12,542 bases of DNA from Planctomycetota bacterium. Lineage in GTDB: Bacteria > Planctomycetota > Planctomycetia > Isosphaerales > Isosphaeraceae. Shown here one piece after another: positions 1-12,542 of this stretch. The position numbers and the translations under genes were made by a program. Under the pieces are notes generated by a model, which was not told where the DNA came from, did not search any database, and saw nothing but the letters and a program-made list of their open reading frames with translations. How positions within the stretch are numbered: the first letter of the stretch is position 1; each line of letters begins with the position of its first letter. The stretch is from the NCBI GenBank assembly GCA_021807585.1, contig JAKBCQ010000015.1:1-12542 (forward strand), in the 5' to 3' direction.

Positions 1-2
1 AC

Positions 3-1202
3 GGAACATTTACGGACGTGACCGAGAAGGCGGGGTTACTCGATCCCGTCAACTCGAATACGGCGTCGTGGGCGGATTACGACAACGACGGCCTGCTCGA
101 CGTGTTCATCGGCTGCGAGAAGCAACGCGATCGCTTGTACCACAATCGAGGCGACGGGACGTTCGAGGAGGTCTCGTTCCGCGCGGGATTGACCGGAACC
201 GAGGAGTTCTGGACGAAAGGATCGACATGGATCGATTTTGACAACGACGATTACCCCGATTTATTCATCAACCATCTCAACGGATCGTCCGCCGAATTGT
301 ATCGGAACAATCGCAACGGCACGTTCACCGAGGTCACCGTGTCGATGGGTGTGAACGGACCGAGGCACGGGTTCTCGTGCTGGGCGTGGGATTACGATAA
401 CGACGGCTTGCTCGACCTGTTCGCCACAAGTTATGAACACACGACCGAGGATGTGGTGAAAGGATTGATCGGTCTTCCGCACGCGTTGGAATCGAACAAG
501 CTTTATCACAACATCGGCGGCAAGAAGTTCGAGGATGTAACCAAGAAGGCGGGTCTCGATCTGGTTTTTATGGCGATGGGGAGCAATTACGGAGATTTCG
601 ACAACGACGGTTTTCTTGATATGTACCTGGGAACGGGCGATCCGAACATCGCGAGCTTGGTTCCCAATCGGATGTTCAAGAATGTGGGAGGCGAGCGTTT
701 CGCCGAGATCACCGGGACGTCGGGAACGGGGCACCTCCAAAAAGGGCACGGGGTCGCTTGCGGCGACTGGGATCGCGACGGCGACGTTGATATCTTTATC
801 GAGATGGGAGGAGCAATCAACGGTGATAAATATCACAATGTTTTGTTTAACAATCCGGGCCAGGGGAATTCGTGGTTGACGGTGCGGCTGAAGGGGGTGA
901 AGACGAATCGCGCCGCGATCGGAGCGCGAATCAAGGCGACGACCGCGGGGGATCGGCCGCTCTCGGTTTATCGGCACGTTTCGTCGGGGAGCAGCTTCGG
1001 AGGGAACCCGCTTGAGCAATCGATCGGCCTTGGGAAAGCGGAACGCGTGGCGACGCTCGAGATTCATTGGCCGACAAGCGGGACGACACAGGTTTTCAAG
1101 GACATCGCGGCGAATCAATACATTGAAGTGACGGAATTCGCCGAGAATTATCGGAGGCTCGATCTCAAGCCGATCGCGACTCCCAGTGCGGATGAAAAGT
1201 GA
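3..1202 (+). CDS. FG-GAP/VCBS repeat protein with C-terminal ASPIC/UnbV domain, 5'-truncated by the window edge
   Basis: The reading frame is open from the first complete codon at position 3, which reads G-T-F-T-D-V-T-E-K-A-G-L, a typical FG-GAP repeat end. The gene therefore starts upstream, and the GTG at 18 is not its start. At least four further FG-GAP/VCBS units are visible, each with a D-x-D-N-D-G-x-x-D calcium-binding type loop (near nt 78, 234, 390, 597 and 768) and an aromatic-N-x-G-x-x-F-x-x-V segment. The C-terminal part (nt about 870-1130) has the ASPIC/UnbV pattern V-R-L-K-G..N-R-x-A-I-G-A-R, then S-S-G-S-S-F and I-H-W-P-S-G. Family members are mostly secreted beta-propeller proteins, common in planctomycetes (CRTAC1-like); their biochemical role is generally unknown. 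The gene ends with tandem stops TGA TGA at 1200-1205. The family call is secure; function is not known. Confidence 0.93.
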   Translation, partial: GTFTDVTEKAGLLDPVNSNTASWADYDNDGLLDVFIGCEKQRDRLYHNRGDGTFEEVSFRAGLTGTEEFWTKGSTWIDFDNDDYPDLFINHLNGSSAELYRNNRNGTFTEVTVSMGVNGPRHGFSCWAWDYDNDGLLDLFATSYEHTTEDVVKGLIGLPHALESNKLYHNIGGKKFEDVTKKAGLDLVFMAMGSNYGDFDNDGFLDMYLGTGDPNIASLVPNRMFKNVGGERFAEITGTSGTGHLQKGHGVACGDWDRDGDVDIFIEMGGAINGDKYHNVLFNNPGQGNSWLTVRLKGVKTNRAAIGARIKATTAGDRPLSVYRHVSSGSSFGGNPLEQSIGLGKAERVATLEIHWPTSGTTQVFKDIAANQYIEVTEFAENYRRLDLKPIATPSADEK

Positions 1203-1244
1203 TGATGCTTCCGAGTCGGCTTCGATATTTTTTTGGGCGGGGTC

Positions 1245-1273
1245 TTGAAAAGCGGCGGAAACCGTTATATCAT
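1245..1273 (+). promoter_or_regulatory. Candidate sigma70-type promoter for the small secreted protein
   Basis: TTGAAA at 1245-1250 (5 of 6 to TTGACA) is followed by a 17-nt spacer and TATCAT at 1268-1273 (5 of 6 to TATAAT). It lies between the stop of the FG-GAP gene and the next gene, about 70 bases before its favoured GTG start. This is a sequence match only; planctomycete promoters are poorly defined. Confidence 0.45.
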
Positions 1274-1341
1274 GATCGAGTCTGCCAGTTCGTTTCGATC
1301 TCTTCTGAACATTGTTCGTGAGTTTTTCTTCGGGGCGTGAC

Positions 1342-1779
1342 GTGCTCACAACCGTTCGCATCAATCGAACACTGCAATCGCTCGCGACGCTCGCCGCGTT
1401 GTTGGGTTGCGGTCTGTTCGTCGCGAAGCCGGCTCAAGCCGAGTGCGCTCGCTACGTCACGTATCACGATCAAGACTCGAAGATCTCGGGACGGCTCGAA
1501 CTCGTCCATTTCGGCGTTCCGAAAACGGCGCCAAGCAACCCCGCTCCGGTCGATCGTCCCGCTCGTCCCAGGCCGTGCTCGGGGGCTCTCTGCTCGGGAA
1601 GCCCCGCGGTTCCGTGGGCGCCGATCCACACGATCCCAGAACGCGTCAACCAATGGGCTTTTCTTGACGCGATTTTTGATGCGAGCCGGTCGATTTACGA
1701 ACCGCTCGCTCGCTCATCATCGAATCTGATTCCCACGTCTTATGTCGACTCGATCTTCCATCCTCCTCGAGCTCGCTGA
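1342..1779 (+). CDS. Hypothetical small secreted protein with Pro/Cys-rich centre
   Basis: About 145 residues from the GTG at 1342; in-frame GTG 1318 and TTG 1312 are alternatives, and none has a clear Shine-Dalgarno. I prefer 1342 because it places a short basic n-region (R-I-N-R) before a hydrophobic core and an A-x-A signal-peptidase site (K-P-A-Q-A, then E-C-A). The mature part has a short segment D-Q-D-S-K-I-S-G-R-L-E-L, then a proline-rich stretch with P-C-S-G-A-L-C-S-G-S-P, which could form a small disulfide loop. The C-terminal 50 residues look globular. I recall similar Pro/Cys loop motifs in planctomycete hypothetical proteins, but I cannot assign a function. It stands alone: a good promoter lies just upstream and a hairpin 20 bases downstream. 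Moderate confidence that it is a real gene. Confidence 0.55.
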   Translation: MLTTVRINRTLQSLATLAALLGCGLFVAKPAQAECARYVTYHDQDSKISGRLELVHFGVPKTAPSNPAPVDRPARPRPCSGALCSGSPAVPWAPIHTIPERVNQWAFLDAIFDASRSIYEPLARSSSNLIPTSYVDSIFHPPRAR

Positions 1780-1798
1780 ACGCATCGTTCTTCACGTA

Positions 1799-1819
1799 GA
1801 TCGATCGCAATGATCGATC
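1799..1819. repeat. Perfect 8-bp inverted repeat (hairpin) after the small secreted gene
   Basis: GATCGATC at 1799-1806 and again at 1812-1819, separated by GCAAT. Because GATCGATC is itself palindromic, the copies are both direct and inverted repeats and can form an 8-bp stem with a 5-nt loop. It lies 20 bases past a stop codon, but no T-run follows, so it is not a classical intrinsic terminator. Confidence 0.5.
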
Positions 1820-2053
1820 CGGTCACGCCGATGCGCGCGACTTTTTGTCGAAGGCATCCGCAGATCGTACTTTTTCGCTTCGATCGCTCGTCGTCGTGAT
1901 CCGTTCAAGGATCGCCGGCGCCGGACACTTGGACCGAGAAGCGGATCTGACGACTTCCATGCGCCGACAGGAATCGGTCGTATCGAATCCCCAACCGTGA
2001 AGAAATCGGCGTGTTTTACGATTTCATCATCGCATTGCGCGACGATGGGTTAC

Positions 2054-2082
2054 TCGAAACGCGCTCGAAAGCCATCTAAAAT
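2054..2082 (+). promoter_or_regulatory. Candidate promoter of the DUF1559 gene cluster
   Basis: TAAAAT at 2077-2082 (5 of 6 to the -10 consensus) with TCGAAA at 2054-2059 (4 of 6 to the -35) and a 17-nt spacer. The A/T-rich stretch around 2076-2088 stands out in this GC-rich gap. It would leave a leader of about 110 bases before the start at 2200. Confidence 0.35.
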
Positions 2083-2199
2083 AACAAACGTTCACTGTTC
2101 ATCGATCATTTGAGGCGGCGTCGACGAAACGATTGCGCGAAACGGCCGCGCGTCGGCGCCAAATGCTTTCATACAAGTACGCTCCAGGAGGATACTTCG

Positions 2200-3153
2200 A
2201 TGTCACGACGCCGAGGCGGTTTCACGTTGATCGAATTGTTGGTAGTGATCGCGATCATCAGCGTTTTGATCGCGTTGTTGTTGCCCGCGGTTCAGCAGGC
2301 TCGAGAGGCGGCTCGCCGCGTCCAGTGCGTGAACAATCTCAAGCAGCTCGGTCTGGCTTTGCATAATTATCATGATTCGTACAACATGCTTCCCTCGATG
2401 AATCTCTTCGTCCCCGGTTCTCAATACTCGGTGCTGGGGCAGATCCTTCCTTATCTTGACCAGACGCCGATGGCGAACGCGCTCAATTTCAACATGGTCT
2501 ATTACGATCCATCGAACACGACGGTGTTGATGACGACGATCAACACATTTTTATGTCCTTCGGATTTTCCGAACACGTTGCCTCAGATGGGAGGTGCGAC
2601 GAATTACATGGGGGACCTGGGAAGCGGGATCGCCTTCCTGACGTCGATGATGTTCCAACCGCCGAATTTCCCGCCGCCGAACGGAGTGTTCTATCAAGAC
2701 AGCAACACGACGTTCGCATCGATCGTCGACGGGCTTTCAAGCACCGGCTTTTTCAGCGAGCGCGTGCTCGACGACGCTTCGATGAGCCAGGTGCATCCGC
2801 TCTCGGATGTGTTTATGGGATTCACCAATCCGATGACTCCCGATCAGGCGCTGATCCAATGCCGGGCGATCAATATCAACAATCTTGCCAATCAGGCGCC
2901 GGTATTCATGGGGATGCCCTGGTTGTTGGGACAGCACATTTTTCAGCACGTATCGCCCCCGGACGACATTTCTTGCGGGTTCTTCGTCGTGAACCGCTCG
3001 ACGATGCCTCCGAGCAGTCGTCATCCCGGCGGCGTCAACCTGTTGCTCGGCGACGGTTCGGTCCGTTTCATCAAGAAATCGATCAACCTTATCGTATGGC
3101 GCGGGCTCGGCTCGCGCAACGGCGGCGAGGTGCTCTCGGGTTCGGATTACTAA
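2200..3153 (+). CDS. DUF1559 domain protein with type IV pilin-like N-terminus
   Basis: 317 residues from the ATG at 2200, chosen because AGGAGG at 2186-2191 sits 8 bases before it and the pilin signature begins right there; an in-frame upstream extension to 2110 is unlikely. Residues 7-12 are G-F-T-L-I-E, the prepilin-peptidase site (cleavage after G7, E12 at +5), followed by a hydrophobic helix to about residue 30. Then comes Q-x-A-R-E-A-A-R-R..[16 protein letters not shown], the standard DUF1559 (SBP_bac_10 / H-X9-DG) start. The C-terminus carries [17 protein letters not shown], the family's end motif. These proteins occur in very many copies per planctomycete genome and are thought to be pseudopilin-like envelope proteins of unknown role. 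The small lipoprotein downstream is the usual companion. Confidence 0.95.
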
Positions 3154-3162
3154 TCATTCGAA

Positions 3163-3176
3163 ATATGCATGCATAT
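3163..3176. repeat. 14-bp perfect palindrome between DUF1559 and lipoprotein genes
   Basis: ATATGCATGCATAT is a perfect palindrome in the 34-base gap between two genes. It is strikingly A/T-rich against its surroundings. It could be an operator half-site pair or simply a spacer hairpin. A CATGCATG core recurs at 11558-11565, at the start of the ABC ATPase gene. Confidence 0.4.
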
Positions 3177-3187
3177 AAAGGAATTAG

Positions 3188-3634
3188 GTGATTTCAATGA
3201 TTGCTCCGAGCAAGACTTTCTCGATTTCGTTTCATGACGGCGCGACGGGTTTGTTTCTGATCATCGCGATGGTTGCGGCGACGATTTTGATGTTCTCGGG
3301 CTGCGGCCCGAGCGAGGCGCACGGCGGTCCGGTCGATCCCAAGATCGCGCAGGAATCGCTCCGCATCGTCCTCGACTCGTGGAAAAACGGCGAAAAGCCC
3401 GAACAACTGCAATCGCCTCCCCGATCGATCACCGCACAGGATCTCGATTGGCTCAAGGGGATGAAACTCGTCGAGTACAAGGTGCTCGACGACGCGACGC
3501 CGAAGGGGACGAATCTCTGGGTTTCGGTCGATTTAACGCTCACCGATTCGTCGTCGAAGACCGTCCACAAAAAAGTGCGTTACATCGTGGGAACGAACCC
3601 CGCGGTCACCGTTTTTCGGGAGCTTTTTCGATGA
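3188..3634 (+). CDS. Small lipoprotein of unknown function, DUF1559 companion
   Basis: 148 residues from GTG at 3188, favoured because AAGGA at 3178-3182 lies 5 bases upstream; the alternative ATG at 3197 would be 14 bases from it. Residues 20-39 form a hydrophobic segment ending in M-F-S-G-C, a lipobox with Cys39 as the likely lipidated residue, so the protein should be anchored to a membrane and face outward. The mature part has about 110 residues with A-Q-E-S-L-R..L-x-S-W-K-x-G, a pattern seen in small planctomycete lipoproteins encoded behind DUF1559 genes. I cannot assign a function. Its stop overlaps the next gene's start (ATGA at 3631-3634), so the two are probably translationally coupled, which ties this lipoprotein to the large redox selenoprotein. 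Confidence 0.85.
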   Translation: MISMIAPSKTFSISFHDGATGLFLIIAMVAATILMFSGCGPSEAHGGPVDPKIAQESLRIVLDSWKNGEKPEQLQSPPRSITAQDLDWLKGMKLVEYKVLDDATPKGTNLWVSVDLTLTDSSSKTVHKKVRYIVGTNPAVTVFRELFR

Positions 3635-6306
3635 AAACACGCCGGCGTGAATTGTTCCTTGCGCGAAAGAAACGGTGGAGCGTTCAAGGATCGATCGCGT
3701 TATACCTGGCGTCGACGGTGCTCGCCGCGTCCGCGCTCGTCGCGGCCGCGCGCGGCGCCGATCGTGAACCCCAGGCGATCGTCGCGAAAGCCGTTAAAAA
3801 ACCGGAAGACTCGGGCTCGAAATCGGCTCAATCGACGAATCGAAATCCGAACGAAAGCGCAACCGATCGCCTCGAACAAGTTTGGCCCGCCCACCCCGAG
3901 TGGGTCGCTATGCTCGTTGACATCCTTGACGGAAGCCGGCTCGGCCCCGGCGACGGTTGGTTCAAAAAAGCCGTTTCGCAAACACGTTTTGATTGGAAAT
4001 CGACCCGCGAACGGTTCGACCGCGATCGCGACGGGTCGATCTCGTTGAGCGAATTCGGCGACGCCGAAGCCGACTTCCAACGCCTCGATCGCGACGGCGA
4101 TCGCCGCCTGACCGAGGCCGATTTCAACTTCTCGGCGCACGCGCTCGCGGCCTCGCCCGGAATGATCGTCTTCTATCGAGCCGATCGCAACGGCGACGGC
4201 AGGGTTACTCATAAAGAAATCGATGCTTTTTTTAAGAAGGCCGATTCGGGCGACTCGGGATTCCTTTCGCTCGCCGATTTTCAGCGTTCGATCGACCCGC
4301 CTCCGAGCCGGCCCGAGCCGCGATCGAGCGACGCGGGACCGACCAAGCTCACGCTGATCCGCGGCCTGCTTCGCCAGGAGATCGGCTCGCTTCAGGCGGG
4401 CCCGAAACTCGACGAATCCGCCCCCGATTTCACCCTCGAAACCGTCGACGGCAAGCGTCATGTCACGCTCGCTCACGAGATCGGCGCCAAACCCGTCGTG
4501 CTGATCTTCGGCAATTTCACGTGCGGTCCGTTTCGCTCTCAAGCGGGCAATGTTGAAAAATTGTACAGACGTTATAAAGATCGCGCGACGTTCATGATGG
4601 TTTACGTCCGCGAGGCGCATCCCAACGACGGCTGGCGGATGGAGAGCAACGATCGAGTCGGCGTTTCGCTCGATCAACCAAGAACGTACGACGAACGAGT
4701 CGGAGTCGCTCGGACCTGCGTACAAACGCTCGGGTTCGATATCCCGGTTCTCGTCGATACGATTCAAGACGTCGTGGGCGCTCGTTACAGCGGCATGCCC
4801 AGCCGGCTCTATCTCATCGATTCCAACGGCAAAATCGCGTACAAAAGCGGTCGAGGACCGTTCGGCTTCAAACCCGCCGAGCTTGAGCATTCGCTGATCT
4901 TGATGCTGCGAGCCAGATCGGCCGATCATCCCGCGGAAGACGTCGCATTGAAAAGAAATGAACATGCTTCCGTTAATCTCCCCGTCGACCGTGATTCGGC
5001 GGGCAAAATCGCATCGAAATCGACCGATCGTTCGGCGGGGCGCGTCCCGCGGCTCGATAACGACGAGGCTTGGCGGCTGCTGCCGCGAGTCGAATCGGGC
5101 GGAGGAGGCGCGTTACCGAACTGGGCGCGGGCACTCGCTCGCACGCTGCCGCGAACGACCGCGGCGATGCTCGACCTCGATCGGCTGCAGCGAACGCGTA
5201 GCTCTCTTGGCGCCGTGCTCCGCGGCAAGATGCGCTGGATCGCGGCAAACTCGAATCAATGCGCGTACTCAATGGCCTACGCCGAGGCCGACCTGCGTCG
5301 CGCGGGGGTTTCGGACGCCGAAATCAAGGGGCTTGCGAATGGTCGACCGGGATCGACCCCGGAAGAGATCGCCGCGCTCGATTTCGCCCGCAAAATGACG
5401 CTTGAAGCCGATACCGTGAGCGACGCCGAAGTCGCTTATATCAAACAATCGTATGGCGAAACCAAGTTGGCGGCGATGGTTTTGCTGCTCGCGTACGCGA
5501 ATTTTCAGGATCGGTTGCTGCTCGCGCTCGATGTTCCCGTCGAGGCCGGCGGTCCGCTCGCTCCGATCGATGTCCGGTTCGTCAAAGGAGAGAAAAACCC
5601 CGAGATCCCTCGGCGCGTTTTACCCGAAGGGGCTTCGTTACACTCCGTTCCCGAACGGATCGACGATCCTGAATGGACGGCGTATAAGATCGGCGAACTT
5701 CGAGGCAAGCTGGACAAGCAAAGATCGAACGCGGGACGCATTCGTGTACCATCATGGGATGACGTGTTGAGTGTTTTACCCGAGGGGTATCCGAAACCGA
5801 AGAGTCCGAGCCGGATTCAATGGAGTTTGGTGTGCATGGGATATCAACCCGAATTGGCGATCGCGTGGTCGGCGTGCACACGGGCGTTCGGCGAGGAGGC
5901 GAAGCAGGATCGCGTGTTCGAGGAAAGCCAGTTTTGGATCGTCACGCGAACGATTCATTGCTTTTACTGAATGGGGCACTGCGAAATGCTGCTCGCGGTC
6001 GCGGGCCTCGACGAGAAATCGCTCAACGAACGTACCGAACGCCTCGCCTCGGGAGATTGGTCGGGTTTTACTCCTCGAGATCGCTACGCTTTCCTCTTTA
6101 CACGTAAACAAGCCAAAGCGCCTTGGGCGATCAACGATGAAGACATGAGACTTCTTATTGAACACTTCGGCCTTGAACGCGCCCTCGACGTTCTTTGGTG
6201 GGGGTGTCGCTGCCATTACATGACGCGAGTCGCCGACGGCTTCCAATTACCCCTCGAACGTGAAAACGTGTTTCAAGATCCCCCCGGTACGAAGGCCGAG
6301 AAATGA
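3631..6306 (+). CDS. Exported selenoprotein: EF-hands, deiodinase-like redoxin and two CMD domains (TGA at 5968 read as Sec780)
   Basis: 891 residues if the in-frame TGA at 5968-5970 is read as selenocysteine; 779 if not. The start at 3631 overlaps the previous stop (ATGA). In order: basic n-region and hydrophobic signal peptide (1 to about 43); four EF-hand loops (130-141, 153-164, 185-196, and a weaker 205-216); a thioredoxin fold (about 265-425) matching the iodothyronine deiodinase family, with G-N-F-T-C-G-P-F at 294-301 (Cys298 where deiodinases have Sec) and V-R-E-A-H-P-N-D-G-W ending at 335; a degenerate CMD/AhpD-like domain (about 495-660, C544-A-Y-S547); and a second CMD domain (about 690-891) with E765, C777-F-Y-U780-M-G-H783. 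The frame continues past the TGA for 111 family-like codons, including W-W-G-C-R-C-H-Y and R-V-A-D-G-F. Likely an exported, calcium-responsive thiol or peroxide redox enzyme; substrate unknown. The domain calls are strong and the Sec call is well supported but untested. Confidence 0.85.
5968..5970 (+). other. In-frame TGA recoded as selenocysteine (residue 780)
   Basis: The codon replaces the second Cys of a C-x-x-C redox pair (C777-F-Y-[TGA]-M-G-H). The sequence continues in the same frame with conserved CMD-family sequence to a proper TGA stop at 6304-6306. A Glu lies exactly 12 residues before C777, as between Glu118 and Cys130 of AhpD. Cys homologues of this family typically read C-x-x-C-M-G-H here. 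A sequencing error or simple nonsense mutation would not be expected to hit precisely this catalytic position. Confidence 0.85.
5978..5999 (+). promoter_or_regulatory. Candidate bacterial SECIS element of the large selenoprotein
   Basis: ACTGCGA (5978-5984) pairs with TCGCGGT (5993-5999) in a 7-bp stem (one G-U) closing the 8-nt loop AATGCTGC. The loop G at 5988 is 18 nt after the TGA, inside the window known for bacterial SECIS elements (about 16-37 nt). An alternative fold pairs GGGCA (5974-5978) with TGCTC (5990-5994) and brings G5981 into the loop. The G is not in the first two loop positions of the main fold, so this element is less canonical than the one at 8527. Confidence 0.55.
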
Positions 6307-6367
6307 CGACCCGGCCGGGCCGATTGAATGACAAAACGTGAGCATTCCGGTCATTTAGCAAGGCGCC

Positions 6368-6796
6368 ATGCGAATGAGCGATTCCATCAGTGTAACTTCG
6401 ACGCGTCAGAGTCTGAGCGAGCCGGTGGCCGCCGAGGCGAGTAGAATCGAGCCCGGGACGGATCCCGTCGAGATCGCCGACCGGCTTGAGCGAATCGCCG
6501 CGGACGAGAGCGTCGACGCACGCGAGATTGTTCGTCTCGCGGCGGTTTCGCTCGCGAGCGTGGCTCGGCGGATCGCCGCGATCGAACGGAGGACGACGTT
6601 GATCAGCGGTCGAATCGGCGGGTGGGAGGCTCGACTCGAAGAATCCGAGGATCGCATCGGCGATCATCAGAGATCTTTAAAGCTCATCTGCGAGCTTCTG
6701 AAACAAATGGACGATCCTTACGGGTATGGTCGCGAGACCGACGAGAGGATCGCCCGCGAAGAGATCGATTACGATCGACTCGAGCCGGAGGGATGA
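6368..6796 (+). CDS. Hypothetical charged alpha-helical protein
   Basis: 142 residues from ATG 6368 (a second in-frame ATG is at 6374); only a weak ribosome site (AAGG at 6360-6363) is seen. No signal peptide or membrane segment. The N-terminal 25 residues are Ser/Thr-rich and probably disordered. The rest is rich in Glu, Arg, Ala and Ile with regular hydrophobic spacing (I-A-D-R-L-E-R-I-A, then A-S-V-A-R-R-I-A-A-I-E-R-R and W-E-A-R-L-E-E-S-E-D-R-I), suggesting long helices or a coiled coil of roughly residues 35-115. The tail is acidic with a D-P-Y-G-Y-G segment. I do not recognise the family. Its stop overlaps the permease start (ATGA at 6793-6796), so it may be a cytosolic partner or regulator of that transporter. 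The coding call is fairly good from codon use, length and coupling. Confidence 0.7.
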   Translation: MRMSDSISVTSTRQSLSEPVAAEASRIEPGTDPVEIADRLERIAADESVDAREIVRLAAVSLASVARRIAAIERRTTLISGRIGGWEARLEESEDRIGDHQRSLKLICELLKQMDDPYGYGRETDERIAREEIDYDRLEPEG

Positions 6797-8178
6797 TCGT
6801 GTCGACGCAACTGGAAGCGAACGATAGCCCTCCCCGATCGACTCCGCCCCGCGGGCTCGGCTTCGTTTCGGCGACGGCTATCGTCGTCGGCGAGGTGATC
6901 GGGGTGGGGATTTTCCTTACCCCCGCGGGGATGGCGAAGGCGCTCGGCTCGCCCGCCTTGCTGTTGACGGTTTGGCTGGCGACGGGCGCTTCGGCGATCG
7001 CGGGTGCGCTCTGTTTTGGATCGCTCGCGGCGCGATATCCCGAATCGGGGGGAGGATATGTTTACCTGCGTCGAATCTACGGACCGTTGCCGGCGTTTCT
7101 TTACGGCTGGATGTCGCTCCTGGTGATCGACGGCGGAATCGCCGCGGCGCTCGCGTCGGGCTTTTCGAGCCAAATGAGTTATATCTTCAGACTTTCATTA
7201 ATTGAGGGGCGCGGAGTCGCCGTCGGGGTGATTCTCGCGCTTTCGATCGTGAATATATTGGGGACGCGATTCGGCGTGAACTTCGTGCGAGCGCTGACGA
7301 TTCTCAAGCTCGGCGCCCTGGCTTTCCTCGCGATTTGGGGATTCGGCCTGGGTCTGGGGGATTGGTCGAATTTCGTCCCGTTCGCTGCGCGTCGATCGGG
7401 TTCTCCGCCGCTCGCGGGAGCGCTCGTCGGCGGTTTTATCGCGGCTTTCTTTTCGTTCGGCGGCTGGTGGGATCTGGGAAAACTGACGGACGAAACGCGC
7501 GACCCCGAGCGAACGGTCCCGCGGTCGCTTGTCGCGGGGGTTTTAATCATAACGATTGTTTACATTACGATTAGCGCTGTATTTCTTTATCTTGTTTCGA
7601 TTACGAACGTGACGAGCGACAAAAACTTCGCGGCGCAGGCGGGTGAGTCGTTGTTTGGTCGATCGGGGGGAGTCGTGTTTTCGCTGATCGTCGTCGTTTC
7701 GGTGCTGGGAAGTTTGGCGGCGCTATTAACGACGGCGCCGAGGGTTTATGTGGCGATGGCGCGGGACGGGCTGTTCTTCGCCACCGCGGGGCGCGTTCAC
7801 CCCGGAACGGGAGCGCCGTTTGTCGCGGGAGGGATCCAGGCGATCGCGGCTTCGATTCTCGTCGTCTCGGGTTCGTTTGATCAGATTATCGCGTACTTTA
7901 TTGTACCGATGCTAGTCTTTTTAGGATTGATCGTCGCCGGGGTTTATGTCGTCAAGCCGAATCGCGACCGCGCGTCGGTGACGAGGATACCGGGTTATCC
8001 CGTAACGCCGCTCGTCTTTCTGGTCCCGCTCGCGGCGCTTTTTCCGTTGCTGTTGGTCGACGACCCGGTGCGGGGTCTGATCGGCCTGGGAGTGGTCGCC
8101 GCGGGAATTCCGGCGTATTATCTTATGTTTCGTCGATCACGAACCAAACTCGCGGTCGATCCGCGAACGAGCGGGTGA
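6793..8178 (+). CDS. APC-superfamily amino acid permease
   Basis: 461 residues from ATG 6793. The in-frame GTG at 6799 is an equally good start, because GGAGGG at 6787-6792 is 6 bases from the GTG but touches the ATG. The protein is a typical polytopic APC transporter (AA_permease_2 type, about 12 membrane segments and close to the usual length). Segment 1 has V-I-G-V-G-I-F-L-T-P (35-44), the unwound substrate-binding G-x-G-I-F motif of this superfamily; segment 6 contains F-F-S-F-G-G-W-W-D-L, followed by D-E-T-R-D-P-E-R-T-V-P-R-S, the conserved cytoplasmic loop. It probably exchanges or imports an amino acid or related compound across the cytoplasmic membrane; the substrate cannot be read from sequence. 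It is coupled to the hypothetical gene before it and lies 62 bases upstream of the AhpD-like selenoprotein. Confidence 0.93.
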   Translation: MIVSTQLEANDSPPRSTPPRGLGFVSATAIVVGEVIGVGIFLTPAGMAKALGSPALLLTVWLATGASAIAGALCFGSLAARYPESGGGYVYLRRIYGPLPAFLYGWMSLLVIDGGIAAALASGFSSQMSYIFRLSLIEGRGVAVGVILALSIVNILGTRFGVNFVRALTILKLGALAFLAIWGFGLGLGDWSNFVPFAARRSGSPPLAGALVGGFIAAFFSFGGWWDLGKLTDETRDPERTVPRSLVAGVLIITIVYITISAVFLYLVSITNVTSDKNFAAQAGESLFGRSGGVVFSLIVVVSVLGSLAALLTTAPRVYVAMARDGLFFATAGRVHPGTGAPFVAGGIQAIAASILVVSGSFDQIIAYFIVPMLVFLGLIVAGVYVVKPNRDRASVTRIPGYPVTPLVFLVPLAALFPLLLVDDPVRGLIGLGVVAAGIPAYYLMFRRSRTKLAVDPRTSG

Positions 8179-8240
8179 CGACCGATGTGATCGGATCGAC
8201 AGCGGTTTTTTCTGAAATCGATAATCAAGGAGTTTTCGAT

Positions 8241-8804
8241 ATGGCCTGGATCAAGACGGTTTCTCCCGAGGGAAACGAGAAGCTGGCGAAGGCGCTCGCG
8301 GATCAGCGGTCGTATTACCCCAAGGAATACGCCGCGCCCGTTCAGGCGCTTGACGAGGGGCTGCCGGGAATCGTCGCATCGCACAGCTTACTGCCGCAAA
8401 CGCTTTATCATGCGTTTTCGACGTTCGGGACGTTGATGTCGCCCGACCTGCCGCTCGATCGTCGTCAGCACGAGATGATCGCGACGATGGTTTCGGTGAC
8501 GAACCGGTGCAAATACTGAATTGAATCGCACGCGGAGTTTCTGCGTCGCGTCACCCTGGACGATGAACTCGTCCGGGCGTTAAGAGAGGACCCGGCGACG
8601 GCGCCGATTTCGGAGCAAGATCGCGTTATGATTAATTATGTGGTTAAGATGACGAAAGACGCGACCCGCGTATCCCCCGAGGATCACGCGCGGCTGCGAT
8701 CGGTCGGCTTCGACGACCGCGCGATCCTCCAGATCACGCTTATCGCCGCCTGGTTCAATTACATCAACCGCGTCGCCGATTCGCTGGGAGTCGGCCGCGA
8801 ATAA
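8241..8804 (+). CDS. AhpD-like peroxidase-related selenoprotein (TGA at 8517 read as Sec93)
   Basis: 187 residues with TGA 8517-8519 read as selenocysteine, the usual length for the peroxidase-related CMD/AhpD family; only 92 if it stops there. Start ATG 8241 has AAGGAG at 8227-8232, 8 bases upstream. The N-terminus M-A-W-I-K-T-V and S-H-S-L-x-P-Q-T-L, then [14 protein letters not shown], are family features. The relay is complete: E78, C90-K-Y-U93, H97, with the AhpD spacing (Glu 12 before Cys; C-x-x-C-x-x-x-H). After the TGA come [38 protein letters not shown], the classic C-terminal signature. No signal peptide, so probably cytosolic. Known relatives reduce peroxides or act as thiol carriers; the exact substrate is unknown. 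Stop TAA sits at the base of a hairpin. Confidence 0.9.
8517..8519 (+). other. In-frame TGA recoded as selenocysteine (residue 93)
   Basis: The TGA stands at the second Cys of the AhpD motif (C90-K-Y-[TGA]-I-E-S-H97), where Cys homologues read C-x-Y-C-x-x-x-H. The frame stays open for 94 further codons that complete the family fold. A strong SECIS-like stem-loop follows. Confidence 0.9.
8527..8550 (+). promoter_or_regulatory. Bacterial SECIS element of the AhpD-like selenoprotein
   Basis: Arm 8527-8536 (CGCACGCGGA) pairs with 8540-8550 in ten base pairs (one G-U), with C8547 as a single bulge and a three-base apical loop GTT at 8537-8539. The loop begins with G, 18 nt after the TGA. A G in the first two loop positions and a distance of about 16-37 nt are the known bacterial SECIS criteria, so the match is close. 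The stem lies inside the coding frame, as in E. coli fdhF. Confidence 0.8.
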
Positions 8805-8835
8805 TCGATTGATCAATCTATTGATTAATCGATTG
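8802..8835 (+). repeat. Long A/T-rich hairpin overlapping the stop of the selenoprotein
   Basis: 8803-8816 pairs with 8821-8834 over 14 base pairs (one G-U, extendable by U8802-G8835) around the loop TCTA. The stem includes the TAA stop at 8802-8804. It is far richer in A/T than the genes on either side. It is not directly followed by a T-run. Confidence 0.65.
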
Positions 8836-8880
8836 ATCGAACCCCGATTCGATCGGTTTTCCCCGTTCTCTTTTTTTTAT
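8833..8880 (+). terminator. Probable intrinsic terminator after the selenoprotein gene
   Basis: GATCGAA (8835-8841) pairs with TTCGATC (8848-8854) around CCCCGA, extendable by two T-G wobbles, and is followed directly by TTTT (8857-8860) and, after a short C-rich stretch, by an eight-T run (8871-8878). It shares bases 8833-8835 with the long hairpin before it, so the two cannot both form fully. It would end a transcript covering the redox/permease genes. Confidence 0.5.
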
Positions 8881-8895
8881 ATCGGAGTGACAACG

Positions 8896-9294
8896 ATGAC
8901 GGTCGCCGTCGAGGAAGTTGTTAAGAACCAGGAACATATTCTTGCGAATCAACATTTGATTCGCGAGGCGCAGGAGACGATTCAGAAGAATCAGGCCAAG
9001 CTCGATAAGATCGCCGCGAATCAGGCGGCGATCCTGACGAACCAGGAGTCGATCCAGGGGAATCAGGCGAAGCTCGATAAAGTCGTCGCCAACCAGGCGA
9101 CGATCGAGGCGAATCAGGAGTCGATCCTTGGCAACCAATCGAAGCTCGAGAAGGCGGTCGCGAATCAGGCGACGATCCAATCGAACCAGGAGACGATCCA
9201 GGCGAATCAGGAACGGATTCTCCTCGAGCTCCGCGAGGTCGTCTCCAATCAACGCGAGATTCTCGCGAATCAAAAGAAGATCATGAGCAAGTAA
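8896..9294 (+). CDS. Repetitive coiled-coil protein with Asn-Gln heptads
   Basis: 132 residues from ATG 8896 (GGAG at 8884-8887, 8 bases upstream). Almost the whole protein is built from heptads of the form I/L-x-x-N-Q-x-x. Three heptads plus a three-residue insert (such as V-V-A) make a 24-residue unit, repeated about four times from residue 18 (nt 8947, 9019, 9091, 9163; 72-base period). With Ile/Leu at core position a, Asn falls at core position d, like the N@d layers of trimeric autotransporter stalks. No signal peptide, membrane segment or other domain. It is probably a soluble oligomeric coiled coil; I cannot name its partner. It is separated from the selenoprotein before it by a probable terminator, so it may be transcribed independently. 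Confidence 0.85.
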   Translation: MTVAVEEVVKNQEHILANQHLIREAQETIQKNQAKLDKIAANQAAILTNQESIQGNQAKLDKVVANQATIEANQESILGNQSKLEKAVANQATIQSNQETIQANQERILLELREVVSNQREILANQKKIMSK

Positions 9295-9417
9295 TTCTTG
9301 ATCATGTCGATCCAGCGGGGAACGGAACGGCTCGCGAGGCCGTCGGGGCGCGTCAAGCGTCCCGGCGGTCGGTCGCGGGAGAGGGTGGAATCGCGCCATC
9401 GAGAGGGACGACGATCG

Positions 9418-9585
9418 ATGAGGCCCGGTCGCACGTTTCGGACGTTGATCGTATCGGCTGCGGCGTTTATGTACGCGGCGCCTTCAACGACCGCGTCGGC
9501 TCTGCTTGAACGCGGACCGATGCAACGTCGAGCCGTGGTCAAACCGCCCCGACAAGGCGTTTTTCCCCAGTTCGGCGCCAAATGA
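9418..9585 (+). CDS. Possible small secreted peptide upstream of the ABC importer
   Basis: 55 residues from ATG 9418, with a purine-rich GAGAGG at 9401-9406 rather far upstream (11 bases). The frame is open further back (to 9298), but that part is Arg-rich and unlike a protein start. The first 27 residues look like a signal peptide (R-P-G-R-T-F-R, a hydrophobic V-S-A-A-A-F-M-Y-A-A core, then T-A-S-A as a cleavage site). The remaining 28 residues are basic and Pro-rich. Its stop overlaps an ATG (9582) in frame with the binding protein gene. I do not recognise it; it may be a real small gene or an open leader. Confidence 0.35.
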   Translation: MRPGRTFRTLIVSAAAFMYAAPSTTASALLERGPMQRRAVVKPPRQGVFPQFGAK

Positions 9586-9601
9586 TCGGCGCCTCGGGTT
9601 T
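9574..9601 (+). terminator. GC-rich hairpin with short T-run before the binding-protein gene
   Basis: GGCGCC at 9574-9579 and 9588-9593 form a 6-bp stem with the eight-base loop AAATGATC, followed after TCGGG by four T (9598-9601). The loop contains the stop of the small peptide frame and the upstream ATG of the binding protein frame. It could act as a weak terminator or attenuator, or be chance in GC-rich DNA. Confidence 0.3.
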
Positions 9602-9611
9602 TGGAATTTCA

Positions 9612-10670
9612 ATGAATCGTTTTATGACAATGCAACGCGTCGTAATCGTCGGCTCGATCGGCTGGATCGTCGCGATCAGCGTCTTGCACGCCCGGCTCAA
9701 CCTCGGCGCGTTCGATCGTCCGACGCCCGCCAAGCGAGCGATCGTCGAGCGGTTTCGCGTCGGCTACATCCCCGTGACGTGCCATCTCACGTGCCCCGTG
9801 ACGAACTTCATCAACGAACGGACGACGGGCGACGGGCTCTTCGAACCCGTTCGCTTCAGCGGTTGGCCCGAGCTCAAGGAAACGTTCCTCTCGGGCGACC
9901 TCGAAGCGACTTTCATCCTCGCGCCGATGGCGATCGCGCTTCGCGAACAGGGTGTTCCGCTGAAGATCGTTTATCTCGGCCATCGCGACGGCACGGCGCT
10001 CATGGCGCGGAAAGATTCCAATATCTTCAAGATTGAAGATCTTCGCGGCAAAAAAATCGCCGTCCCCAATCGGTTTTCCAATCAGTTGCTCATCTTATAT
10101 AAAGTGATGAAAGACAGGGGGATGAACATTAAAGATTGTGAGATCGTCGAACTCCCCGCACCCGATATGGCCGCGGCGCTCTTCACGAGAGCGGTCGACG
10201 CGGTGATTTCCGGAGAGCCGTTCATGGCGCAGACCGAGATGGACGGCTACGGAAGGGTGATTTTCTTGACGAAGGACGTTTGGCCGGGGTTCATCTCGTG
10301 CGTCCTCGCGGTTCCGGATCGCGTGATCAAAACCCGCCGCGACGACGTTCAAAAACTCGTCGATGGAATCGCCAAAAGCGGCAAATGGCTTGATCAATCG
10401 GGGAAACATCGGATGACCGCCGCGGAGTTCGCCGGGAATCTCTATTATCATCAGAATCCCGAATTATTAAAGTTCGTTTTAAGCCAGCCCCCCGATCGCG
10501 TCAAGTATACGAATCTCGCGGTCGTGCGGCGTGATTTTGAAGAGATCGAGGCGCTGGGCCGCGAGGCGGGGATTCTCAAGGGGACGGCTCGGTTCGAAGA
10601 TTACGCCGATCCGTCGTTCGTCCAGGACGAATCGGCGATCAAACCTTACGACTGGGAGGGTCCGCCGTGA
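9612..10670 (+). CDS. ABC transporter substrate-binding protein, NMT1/NrtA-SsuA type
   Basis: 352 residues from ATG 9612, where GGAA at 9603-9606 precedes an N-terminus with a basic start and hydrophobic stretch (V-V-I-V-G-S-I-G-W-I-V-A-I-S-V-L) that serves as a signal anchor or signal peptide; ATG 9582 is an alternative adding ten residues but has no ribosome site. The mature protein has the class features: F-R-V-G-Y-I-P-V-T (48-56), D-L-E-A-T-F-I-L-A-P-M-A-I-A, D-L-R-G-K-K-I-A-V-P and A-V-D-A-V-I-S-G-E-P-F, as in nitrate, sulfonate, taurine and thiamine-precursor binding proteins. It should capture the substrate outside the membrane for the permease and ATPase that follow. Unusual is C57-H-L-T-C61 at the ligand-facing loop after beta-strand 1. 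The substrate is unknown. Its stop overlaps the permease start (GTGA). Confidence 0.9.
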   Translation: MNRFMTMQRVVIVGSIGWIVAISVLHARLNLGAFDRPTPAKRAIVERFRVGYIPVTCHLTCPVTNFINERTTGDGLFEPVRFSGWPELKETFLSGDLEATFILAPMAIALREQGVPLKIVYLGHRDGTALMARKDSNIFKIEDLRGKKIAVPNRFSNQLLILYKVMKDRGMNIKDCEIVELPAPDMAAALFTRAVDAVISGEPFMAQTEMDGYGRVIFLTKDVWPGFISCVLAVPDRVIKTRRDDVQKLVDGIAKSGKWLDQSGKHRMTAAEFAGNLYYHQNPELLKFVLSQPPDRVKYTNLAVVRRDFEEIEALGREAGILKGTARFEDYADPSFVQDESAIKPYDWEGPP

Positions 10671-11512
10671 GCTTCGTTCCGATCACGCCGACCGATAACG
10701 CCGATAAAGATCGAGATATTATAACATCCAACCGTGTTAGGCGTTCGTTCTCGATCCCCGCGCCGGCGTTCGTGCTTCCATTACTGGTCGCCGCGGCGTC
10801 GATCGGCCTGTGGGAGATCGCGGTTTCTTTCTCAGACAACGATCTTCTGCCCGGACCGGCGCTCGTCGTCAAAGGAATTATTGAACTGATCCGCAAAGGT
10901 TTGCTTGCTAAATATATCGTCGCGTCTCTCTTTCGCGTGACGTGGGGGTTCGCGCTGGCGGTTCTCGTGGGTGTACCTTTCGGACTTTTCCTCGGGTGGT
11001 TTCGGCCCGCGTACCAGGCGTTCAATCCGCTGATTCAGCTTTTCCGACCGATCTCGCCGATCGCCTGGATTCCGCTCGCGATCCTCTGGTTCGGCGTCTC
11101 GGACGCGGCGCCGATCTTTTTGATTTTCCTCGCGGGGGTGTTTCCGATCACGGTGTCGGCGGCGGCGGCGGTGCGGAACATTCAAACCGTATATATCAGA
11201 GCGGCGCGCAATTTCGGCCTGAGCCGCGCTCGGCTTTTCCGCAAGGTAATCCTTCCCGCCGCTGCCCCGCAAATCATCACGGGGATTCGGATCGCGCTCG
11301 GCGTCGCGTGGCTCGTCGTCGTCGCCGCCGAGATGATCGCGGTCAATTCGGGACTCGGTTATTTGATCATCGACGCACGCAACGCGGGGAAACGATACGA
11401 TCTCGTGGTCGCGGGAATGATCGTGATCGGGCTGATCGGTCTCGGGCTCGATCTTCTTATCAGCCGACTCGAAAGATTCGAGCAAATCCGCTGGGGTTCA
11501 TCACACCGATAA
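10667..11512 (+). CDS. ABC transporter permease, SsuC/TauC/NrtB type
   Basis: 281 residues from GTG 10667, which overlaps the previous stop and has GGGAGGG at 10654-10660, 6 bases upstream. After a polar N-terminal tail of about 30 residues come about six membrane segments (starting near residues 33, 90, 125, 148, 207 and 245). The EAA loop that docks to the ATPase is at about 179-199 (A-A-R-N-F-G-L-S..L-F-R-K-V-I-L-P-A-A). R-P-I-S-P-I-A-W-I-P-L-A-I-L-W-F-G (127-143) is characteristic of the nitrate/sulfonate/taurine permease family. It forms the channel of the importer, probably as a homodimer since only one permease gene is present. Confidence 0.94.
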   Translation: MSFVPITPTDNADKDRDIITSNRVRRSFSIPAPAFVLPLLVAAASIGLWEIAVSFSDNDLLPGPALVVKGIIELIRKGLLAKYIVASLFRVTWGFALAVLVGVPFGLFLGWFRPAYQAFNPLIQLFRPISPIAWIPLAILWFGVSDAAPIFLIFLAGVFPITVSAAAAVRNIQTVYIRAARNFGLSRARLFRKVILPAAAPQIITGIRIALGVAWLVVVAAEMIAVNSGLGYLIIDARNAGKRYDLVVAGMIVIGLIGLGLDLLISRLERFEQIRWGSSHR

Positions 11513-11540
11513 CGAACGATAGCGGTAATGGAACGAATTC

Positions 11541-12356
11541 GTGAACAATATAAATACATGCATGAACAATGATATCGCTTCCCCCTCGGATTTGGTGGCG
11601 AACGTACCCGCGATCGTCGTTCGCGATTTGTGGTCGTCTTATCCCGGTCGGACCAGAGGGACGACGATCGACGTTTTGGAGGGGGCCGAGATGGAGGTTT
11701 CGCGGGGGGAGTTCGCGTGCATCGTAGGTCCTTCGGGCTGCGGGAAAACGACGCTCTTGAACACCATCGCCGGGTTTTTGGCGGCGACGCGCGGCGAGGT
11801 TCTCGTCGAGGGGCGCCCGGTCGCCGGTCCCGATCCCAAACGGATCTTCATCTTTCAAGAAGGGGGAGTCTTCCCCTGGTTGACTGTTCACGATAACGTC
11901 GGCTTCGGCCTCGGCGGCCTCGGCCGCGGCGAGCGCGATTCAAAGATCCAACATTACATAGACATGGTGGGACTAACAGGATTTGAATCGTCGTATCCGC
12001 GCGAGCTATCGGGGGGGATGCGGCAACGGGTGGAGATCGCTCGCGCGTTGGCGGCGAGCCCCGAGATTCTGTACATGGACGAGCCGTTCGGCGCGCTCGA
12101 TTATTTCACGCGATACAAGATGCGGGCCGATCTGATTCGGATCTGGGAGGTCGAACGGAAGACGATCCTGTTCGTTACCCACGATATCGACGAGGCGCTC
12201 CAGCTCGCGGATCGAATCTTTGTGATGAATCGTCGCCCGGCGCGGGTTGCGACGATCGTCGAAGTCGACGCCGCCAGACCGCGCGACCTCGATTCGGCGG
12301 AATATCTCGGTCTTCGTCATCGGATCTTCGCGGCTATGGGGATGAATCATCCGTGA
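11541..12356 (+). CDS. ABC transporter ATP-binding protein, SsuB/TauB/NrtD type
   Basis: 271 residues from GTG 11541 (weak GGAA at 11530-11533); ATG 11562, seven codons in, is an alternative without a visible ribosome site. All nucleotide-binding motifs are intact: Walker A G-P-S-G-C-G-K-T-T (63-71), Q-loop Gln106 (F-Q-E-G-G-V-F-P-W-L-T-V), signature L-S-G-G-M-R-Q-R-V (156-164), Walker B I-L-Y-M-D-E (176-181), D-loop G-A-L-D and H-loop His214 (V-T-H-D-I-D-E-A-L). F-P-W-L-T and the D-E-A-L-x-L-A-D-R-I end are typical of the nitrate/sulfonate/taurine importers. It lies 28 bases after the permease and should drive import by ATP hydrolysis on the cytoplasmic side. Confidence 0.95.
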   Translation: MNNINTCMNNDIASPSDLVANVPAIVVRDLWSSYPGRTRGTTIDVLEGAEMEVSRGEFACIVGPSGCGKTTLLNTIAGFLAATRGEVLVEGRPVAGPDPKRIFIFQEGGVFPWLTVHDNVGFGLGGLGRGERDSKIQHYIDMVGLTGFESSYPRELSGGMRQRVEIARALAASPEILYMDEPFGALDYFTRYKMRADLIRIWEVERKTILFVTHDIDEALQLADRIFVMNRRPARVATIVEVDAARPRDLDSAEYLGLRHRIFAAMGMNHP

Positions 12357-12542
12357 CGACACGATTTTTATTCAGAGTCGATCATCGCGCGCGGCTTCCG
12401 TCGTTTGACGAACGTCTGGGCCGCGGCGGGCGAATTATTCCCGCCGAGTTTCGCGGGTCGGCGCCATCGCGTCAACTTGAAATGATACGAATATTCCTTG
12501 TTTGGATACGCCTCGGCTCTTGATTTTTGAGTCTACTAAGGA
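12357..12542. other. Gene-free right edge with a possible ribosome site
   Basis: No reading frame here is convincing. The last five bases are AAGGA, in an A/T-richer stretch (from about 12475), so a gene probably begins just outside the window. A TTGAAA at 12477-12482 has no well-placed -10 partner that I can see. Confidence 0.4.

Follow-up and report, generated by a model that had tools for sequence, protein, structure and literature searches.

Does a TGA codon in the middle of a long reading frame end the protein, or does it place selenocysteine (Sec) in the active site of a redox enzyme? The question is raised by a 12,542-nucleotide stretch of planctomycete DNA, called the window here (assembly GCA_021807585.1, contig JAKBCQ010000015.1, positions 1 to 12,542, forward strand), from a bacterium of the Isosphaeraceae whose genome we call G000. 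A gene beginning at position 3631 is open for 779 codons, meets a TGA at codon 780, and continues in the same frame for a further 111 codons. A reading of the letters alone, the sequence-only reading below, had proposed that this TGA specifies Sec780 of a catalytic C777-x-x-U780 pair in a giant redox fusion protein. We conclude that the mid-gene TGA almost certainly codes for Sec, placed in the active site of a large redox fusion protein. Our confidence is high for the Sec assignment and the domain anatomy taken together, the substrate being left out of that judgment.

The Reading Frame and Its Interior TGA

The frame that opens at ATG 3631 is as first described. After 779 codons comes the TGA at 5968–5970, the single in-frame TGA within the gene, preceded by HCFY and followed by MGHCEM, and 111 in-frame codons lead from it to the terminal stop at 6304–6306. 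The ATG overlaps the TGA stop (3632–3634) of the preceding gene, which encodes a protein of 148 residues. Under a base-composition model, 111 stop-free codons would arise by chance with a probability of about 0.018, so the openness of this segment is weak evidence, and conservation decides instead. A genome of the same genus, G001, carries the same TGA in a gene whose protein is 85% identical, and the DNA of the two is identical across the 55 nt counted from the TGA.

The Codon at Position 780 in Relatives

Relatives were sought with the read-through protein in 99 genomes, G000 included, and matches, some of them weak, were found in 78. Counts at column 780 refer to the loci read, which cover many among the matches listed. 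The sequence-only reading had suggested looking for Cys at this column in homologues, and the codon there is TGC (Cys) in 36 genes and TGA in 20 distinct genes. The TGA-780 gene occurs in 19 of the 99 genomes, and the identical 19 are recovered by the independent hairpin pattern described below. In a tree of 108 CMD-CMD proteins, made by a quick method with a root for drawing only and with some long branches, one branch (SH-aLRT 91) separates the 20 Sec forms from the 88 Cys forms. When the CMD-CMD half was used as a query across the phylum, a match at E 1e-40 was obtained in 5 of 392 genomes; one of these, G184, is of another class, and it too has the TGA with the hairpin unchanged, along with a strong SelA.

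The segment after the TGA is more constrained than the segment before it. In the comparison of the window with G001, the ratio of nonsynonymous to synonymous substitution rates (dN/dS) is 0.228 for residues 1–779 and 0.074 for residues 781–891, the latter being the lowest of the four regions compared.

Among copies spanning column 780, the sole other interior TGA belongs to a Cys gene of genome G040, at column 856; the TGA at column 892 is the terminator. This Cys-form CMD-CMD gene (locus L056, G040:C2:3802400-3804600) is probably a broken gene, and searches of the G040 genome found no SelB, SelD or tRNA-Sec.

A Conserved Hairpin Downstream of the TGA

A hairpin of 16 nt, GCTCGCGGTCGCGGGC, starts 20 nt past the TGA and is common to all 21 TGA sequences compared. 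The stem makes all six pairs in each of the 21, in contrast to 2 to 5 of six (mean 3.7) in 38 TGC sequences, and RNAalifold predicts the hairpin for the TGA sequences (−9.6 kcal/mol) but nothing at that place for the TGC sequences (−1.4). The stem-loop expected of bacterial selenoproteins right after the UGA, with a small apical loop that holds a G, is present in 21 of 21, with GGUC as the loop. Conservation here is at the level of nucleotides. Synonymous diversity is zero at codons 787–792 (at 787, within the 18 of 20 genes that have Leu), and the peptide LAVAG has 1536 possible synonymous spellings. At the other conserved degenerate columns the mean is 0.47 (86 columns in all, codon 792 being counted among the others for this mean); outside 787–792, only codon 863 is also zero.

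The association of hairpin and TGA holds without reference to protein. In the collected DNA the 16-mer occurs 36 times, redundant loci included, and each time a TGA stands exactly 23 nt upstream. The nucleotide-only pattern, TGA, any 20 nt, then the 16-mer, is found at 61 places in 55 of 397 genomes of the class, the control columns giving zero, and these places form a clean natural set for the study of SelB recognition in the group. Thirty loci were returned of the 61 places and one was dropped for its identical context; all of the 29 distinct sites read encode in-frame C-x-Y-U-[ML]-G-H. Proteins of genes with the identical hairpin are 39–85% identical to the window protein. At six sites (L226, L227 and L232–L235; CxYULGHQE) the Sec codon stands early in the chain, with 314–318 open codons downstream, as compared with 106–130 at the other 23. 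It follows that the identical hairpin serves a second protein arrangement.

Selenocysteine Machinery and Points That Weigh against Recoding

The G000 assembly (4.29 Mb, 884 contigs) is 68.75% complete. SelA (E 3.7e-106) and SelB (E 7.9e-114) are encoded side by side on its contig C562; both exceed their cut-offs, and neither match has a stop inside. In G001, which is 92% complete, tRNA-Sec, SelD, SelB and SelA are all present. SelB is over its cut-off in all 19 genomes with the TGA gene, as against 48 of the 99 overall (Fisher p 1e-7, uncorrected for kinship), with tRNA-Sec in 17 of the 19 (62–79 bits) and SelD in 16. Where SelB is missing, for example in G058 and G040, residue 780 is Cys.

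Several observations count against the recoding of UGA780. SelD matches in the incomplete G000 assembly fall below the cut-off, and no true tRNA-Sec is found there: ARAGORN identifies the five matches to the tRNA-Sec model as tRNA-Leu, -Ser, -Ser, -Met and -Gly, and the match above the gathering score (49.4 versus 47 bits) is the tRNA-Leu. Of the four components that the sequence-only reading had named, SelA and SelB thus stand in G000 itself, and all four stand in G001; we infer that the missing tRNA-Sec and SelD are assembly gaps. Weak matches to the tRNA-Sec model are to be distrusted, since the control genome Thermus composti also matches it at the threshold used and gives no SelA, SelB or SelD match at the thresholds used. 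The association with SelB spans related genomes, which are phylogenetically non-independent. The hairpin sought just after the TGA is conserved at 5991–6006, but when the window's own 45 nt are folded by minimum free energy the result is another, longer structure (z −3.0), and a 16-nt piece around the conserved hairpin is, by itself, not unusually stable (z −1.0). Since the gene's own terminator is also TGA, the hairpin must discriminate between the two codons. Finally, the full-length protein model has a predicted template modelling score (pTM) of 0.54 and does not settle whether Cys298, in the deiodinase-like domain, contacts Sec780.

Set beside these points, the exchange of Sec and Cys at the column, the invariant hairpin, purifying selection after the TGA and the presence of SelA and SelB in the genome uphold Sec780 in a C777-x-x-U780 motif. 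We propose that UGA780 would be decoded as Sec by SelB and tRNA-Sec, steered by the hairpin GCUCGC-GGUC-GCGGGC 20 nt downstream. This decoding is well supported by sequence comparison, and Sec is very probably inserted.

Domain Organization

The proposal of a giant redox fusion holds. Along the chain come, in order, an N terminus resembling a signal sequence, EF-hands, the deiodinase domain that holds Cys298, and two CMD repeats; from the N-terminal sequence, export of the protein is probable. NCBIfam NF038285 (deiodinase family protein) covers residues 87–427 with 500 bits (cut-off 250), and the deiodinase domain matches the type III deiodinase 4tr3 (E 1e-21), and type II deiodinases too. Cys298 falls in the column of the TC-PF site of 4tr3, which we take to be the native Sec site of deiodinases.

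The C-terminal half is modelled as an all-helical double repeat (AlphaFold2 predicted local distance difference test 92, pTM 0.92), in which repeat 1 aligns with repeat 2 at an hhalign probability of 98.4. In repeat 2, residues C777, Y779, C/U780, M781, G782, H783, E785 and M786 are invariant in 54 homologues, and its CxxU aligns with the CxxU of an AhpD-like protein encoded elsewhere in the window (hhalign 88.4%). In repeat 1, C544 is kept in 48 of the 54 aligned homologues, and residue 547 is S, A, G or T in all 54. Conservation and the model support the view that the first repeat, having lost its second Cys, would have a structural or regulatory part. The best Foldseek match of the CMD-CMD model is human Sestrin2 over its whole length, followed by AhpD-like proteins and the debrominase Bmp8; the AhpD-like folds give template modelling (TM) scores, by target, of 0.78 for 6k40 and 0.71–0.74 for 3c1l. 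Sequence-profile hits to CMD proteins and to Bmp8 lie on repeat 1; repeat 2 has a single weak one, 2oyo (E 0.0076). The CMD-like nature first assigned to the C terminus is therefore borne out by fold and repeat structure but not by Pfam: PF02627 scores 15.6 bits with the full length and 18.0 bits with the C-terminal half, below the cut-off of 23. We accordingly use the term CMD-like in the sense of fold and motif and do not place the protein in the Pfam family.

One part of the first description is not sustained. Glu765, 12 residues before the Cys, had been named as the relay Glu; we do not accept it because it is E in only 32 of 54 homologues (14 of 20 TGA genes). Residue 756 is E in 54 of 54 homologues and in 19 of 20 TGA genes.

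Proposed Function

Sec780 and Cys777 would act as redox partners in the second AhpD/CMD repeat, and C777-U780 is the likely catalytic pair. We suggest that this pair may cooperate with the site around Cys298 in the fused deiodinase-like domain, in an intramolecular relay of the peroxidase/AhpD type, and that the EF-hands may be a calcium-dependent structural or control element. Peroxide or thiol-disulfide chemistry, with C777-U780 acting together with the Cys298 site, is our tentative choice for the job of the protein, and somewhat less than an even bet. The reason is that both AhpD and the first domain of Sestrin2 reduce alkyl hydroperoxides, as stated in an excerpt of PMC4674687.

Alternative Explanations

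One alternative is that UGA780 is a plain stop, giving a protein of 779 residues followed by a separate or dead open reading frame (ORF) of 111 codons. TGA is indeed the commonest stop in the window, ending 7 of the 11 genes checked, and the ORF list contains one ORF that ends at 5970 and another, with an ATG start, at 5971–6306. A stop here, however, would split the C-x-x-C motif itself; 36 homologues have Cys in place of the TGA, in one continuous frame, the region after the TGA has the lowest dN/dS of the four, and the invariant hairpin accompanies the TGA form of the gene. We regard a plain stop as very improbable. The same use of TGA as a terminator speaks against a genome-wide reassignment of TGA, for instance to Trp, for which nothing can be cited beyond the in-frame TGA. 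The gene uses TGG 18 times and an interior TGA once, the SelA and SelB matches contain no stop, and homologues have Cys at the column. Reassignment is thus refuted by TGA terminators, TGG use and Cys homologues, and its probability is next to nil. A TGC turned into TGA by a sequencing or assembly error might be entertained for a draft in 884 contigs, but the same TGA is found in G001 and 17 further relatives, including the single-contig assemblies G012 and G067. These independent assemblies refute an artefact, a danger that the sequence-only reading had raised and that we consider practically nonexistent. With UGA780 read as Sec, ordinary gene calling would cut this planctomycete protein family at its active-site codon.

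A different kind of alternative accepts Sec and questions the chemistry. The protein could be an exported selenium-dependent reductive dehalogenase, whose deiodinase-like and CMD domains would both handle carbon–halogen bonds in the manner of iodothyronine deiodinase and of Bmp8, a debrominase of the CMD fold. In its favor stand the match of the deiodinase domain to type III and type II deiodinases, and the fact that the CMD-CMD half matches the debrominase Bmp8, described as dehalogenating in an excerpt of PMC7918430, by profile (E 1.3e-7) and by model (TM 0.68, target-normalised). Yet the sequence match to Bmp8 lies on the degenerate first repeat, and a scan of ten proteins of the window recognised no gene for halogen metabolism. 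The deiodinase and CMD folds, moreover, belong mostly to general redox proteins. We hold a dehalogenase to be unlikely. A broader conjecture, likewise improbable, is that of an exported two-site selenoenzyme combining the deiodinase fold with a sestrin-like double AhpD relay, possibly dehalogenating aromatics, and forming part of a set of CMD selenoproteins spread across the planctomycetes, all with one nucleotide-invariant selenocysteine insertion sequence (SECIS) hairpin, whether the Sec comes early or late in the chain.

Neighboring Genes and a Second Selenoprotein Gene

The features of the window are collected in Table 1. No RNA genes were found in the window by ARAGORN or Rfam.

Table 1. 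Features of the window, with positions, strand and supporting evidence; G001 is the same-genus genome.
Feature	Positions	Strand	Evidence
891-residue selenoprotein gene (TGA 5968–5970 very probably read as Sec)	3631..6306	+	full-length copy in G001, 85% identity
Basic and hydrophobic N-terminal segment, residues 1–43, probable signal peptide or membrane anchor	3631..3759	+	sequence itself
EF-hand calcium-binding region, residues 127–219	4009..4287	+	Pfam EF-hand_7 36.5 bits (cut-off 30), further EF-hand models
Iodothyronine-deiodinase-like thioredoxin-fold domain, residues 257–422	4399..4896	+	PF00837 99.8 bits (cut-off 27)
Cys298 codon (FTCGPF)	4522..4524	+	aligned with TC-PF site of 4tr3; TGA in separate deiodinase-like paralogues
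First CMD/AhpD repeat, degenerate, C544-A-Y-S547, without second Cys	5056..5586	+	conservation, hhalign repeat match
Second CMD/AhpD repeat with C777-F-Y-U780-M-G-H783	5674..6285	+	fold, hhalign, conservation
TGA codon very probably read as Sec780	5968..5970	+	column comparison, hairpin pattern
SECIS-like hairpin GCTCGC-GGTC-GCGGGC, 6 bp stem, GGUC loop	5991..6006	+	identical in 21 TGA sequences compared
Terminal stop codon TGA (TAA in G001)	6304..6306	+	
Conserved upstream neighbors: DUF1559 pilin-like protein, 148-residue hypothetical protein	2203..3634	+	
Amino-acid permease between the two selenoprotein genes, conserved neighbor	6769..8178	+	
Second selenoprotein gene, AhpD-like, NRCKYUIESH	8241..8804	+	TIGR01926 108.7 bits; about 2 kb downstream
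In-frame TGA (Sec) of AhpD-like gene	8517..8519	+	
SECIS-like hairpin of AhpD-like gene, 7 bp stem, GUU loop	8530..8546	+	

Separate deiodinase-like paralogues have TGA at the Cys298 column in 13 distinct sequences; paralogues with the motif FTUGPF exist, one of them in this genome (locus L047). A 7-bp hairpin of one geometry, with paired stem changes, is complete in 11 of the 13 sequences; the more distant paralogues L097 and L098 make 3 and 5 of the seven pairs, and 40 Cys-form deiodinase sequences make 0 to 5 (mean 3.0). The hairpin of the second selenoprotein gene has the same geometry, with 7 of 7 pairs in all eight TGA copies of the gene and 3 in the Cys copy. For both sets, pairs were counted in register by a script, a joint MAFFT alignment having misplaced them. 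Copies of the AhpD-like gene at E 1e-30 were found in 9 of 44 genomes searched, this one included, eight with TGA and one with Cys. The fold energy of its 45 nt is not unusual (z −0.97). Between its window copy (8241–8801) and that of G001 (L182), synonymous divergence is 0.368 before the TGA and 0.059 after it, with silent changes unusually few downstream even beyond the hairpin.

The two domains of the fusion are joined, or placed side by side, in several ways. Fused Sec forms occur in G000, G001, G012 and G067, all with Cys at the deiodinase site, and a fifth is indicated in G592 (L238). Fused forms with Cys at both sites are present in G007, G058, G070 and G091, and also in Gemmataceae and other Planctomycetota records, some of which overlap the numbered genomes. 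In G013, G015, G017 and G035 the deiodinase-like and CMD-CMD proteins are encoded by adjacent separate genes with TGA in both, and such two-gene pairs, with TGA at both active sites, are seen at loci L018, L022, L023 and L025. The fusion and these two-gene versions make the role of bacterial deiodinase-like proteins testable. A block of deiodinase, permease and TGA-containing AhpD-like genes is kept in G001, G004, G016 and G017; the parts of G004, G016 and G017 that were read show no CMD-CMD match above 80 bits next to it. Plasmids searched by tblastn yielded a single weak match, which is deiodinase-like.

Further downstream, the window encodes an NQ-rich, repetitive, coiled-coil-like protein (8899–9294) without a Pfam match, 95% identical in G001, and an ABC transporter set (9582–12356: an NMT1-like binding protein, a permease and an ATPase).

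Comparison with Known Systems

The articles compared here are cited from excerpts. CMD-like and deiodinase-like Sec families have been known since 2005 (Zhang et al. 2005, PMC1088965) and appear in the tables of a 2022 article (PMC9312934) and a 2026 review (PMC13188914). Planctomycete Sec genes, those of Isosphaera pallida included, are described in PMC4807772. The main text of the deep-Sep paper (PMC12013277), by term counts, has no occurrence of "planctomycet-", AhpD or deiodinase. Among the matches listed in our literature search, whose coverage mostly excludes subscription journals, we recognised no Sec deiodinase–CMD fusion or planctomycete Sec-CMD family and found no report of a shared hairpin set of this kind.

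With the Sec-CMD/AhpD-like selenoproteins (PMC1088965; PMC13188914) the window protein shares a CxxU motif with Sec as the second Cys, a hairpin just after the UGA, and the AhpD/CMD fold. It differs in its tandem CMD repeats, with the full motif in the second only, in the fused EF-hand/deiodinase module, in a His at +6 instead of +7 from the first Cys, and in that no Pfam or NCBIfam CMD/AhpD model scores above cut-off. Named AhpD-type families with Sec or Cys exist, NF041238 (AhpD_rel_CFYUT, with CFYU in its name) and GroundWater_YciW NF053654, but the former is absent from the matches of the CMD-CMD half at E 0.1 and the latter gives 24.5 bits against a cut-off of 310. The bacterial deiodinase-like (seleno)proteins (PF00837; NF038285) match residues 87–427 and include Sec paralogues with FTUGPF, whereas the fusion has Cys at the deiodinase site and a C-terminal double CMD.

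The likeness to human Sestrin2 is one of architecture only. The double AhpD-like repeat matches over its whole length (best Foldseek E 2.9e-5; query TM 0.48–0.51 for the ten best), and in both proteins one repeat is active and the other degenerate. The identity is 11–13% at a root-mean-square deviation of 12–13 Å, and the window protein is bacterial. Its full motif lies in the second repeat and is a CxxU, in contrast to Sestrin2, where the active site is in the first repeat and has a single Cys125 (PMC4674687); its first repeat retains C544 and Y546, with Ala551 at the place expected for the relay His.

Sec redox domains joined to other domains are also in print: Prx, Prx-like and UGSC fusions and an arsenite methyltransferase/AhpD fusion (PMC2398784; PMC13188914). 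One neighboring Prx-like/AhpD-like pair is described in PMC2398784. The excerpts of these two sources contain no deiodinase–CMD fusion. Sec-CMD and Sec-deiodinase proteins are known separately, and their fusion is an addition to selenoprotein architectures.

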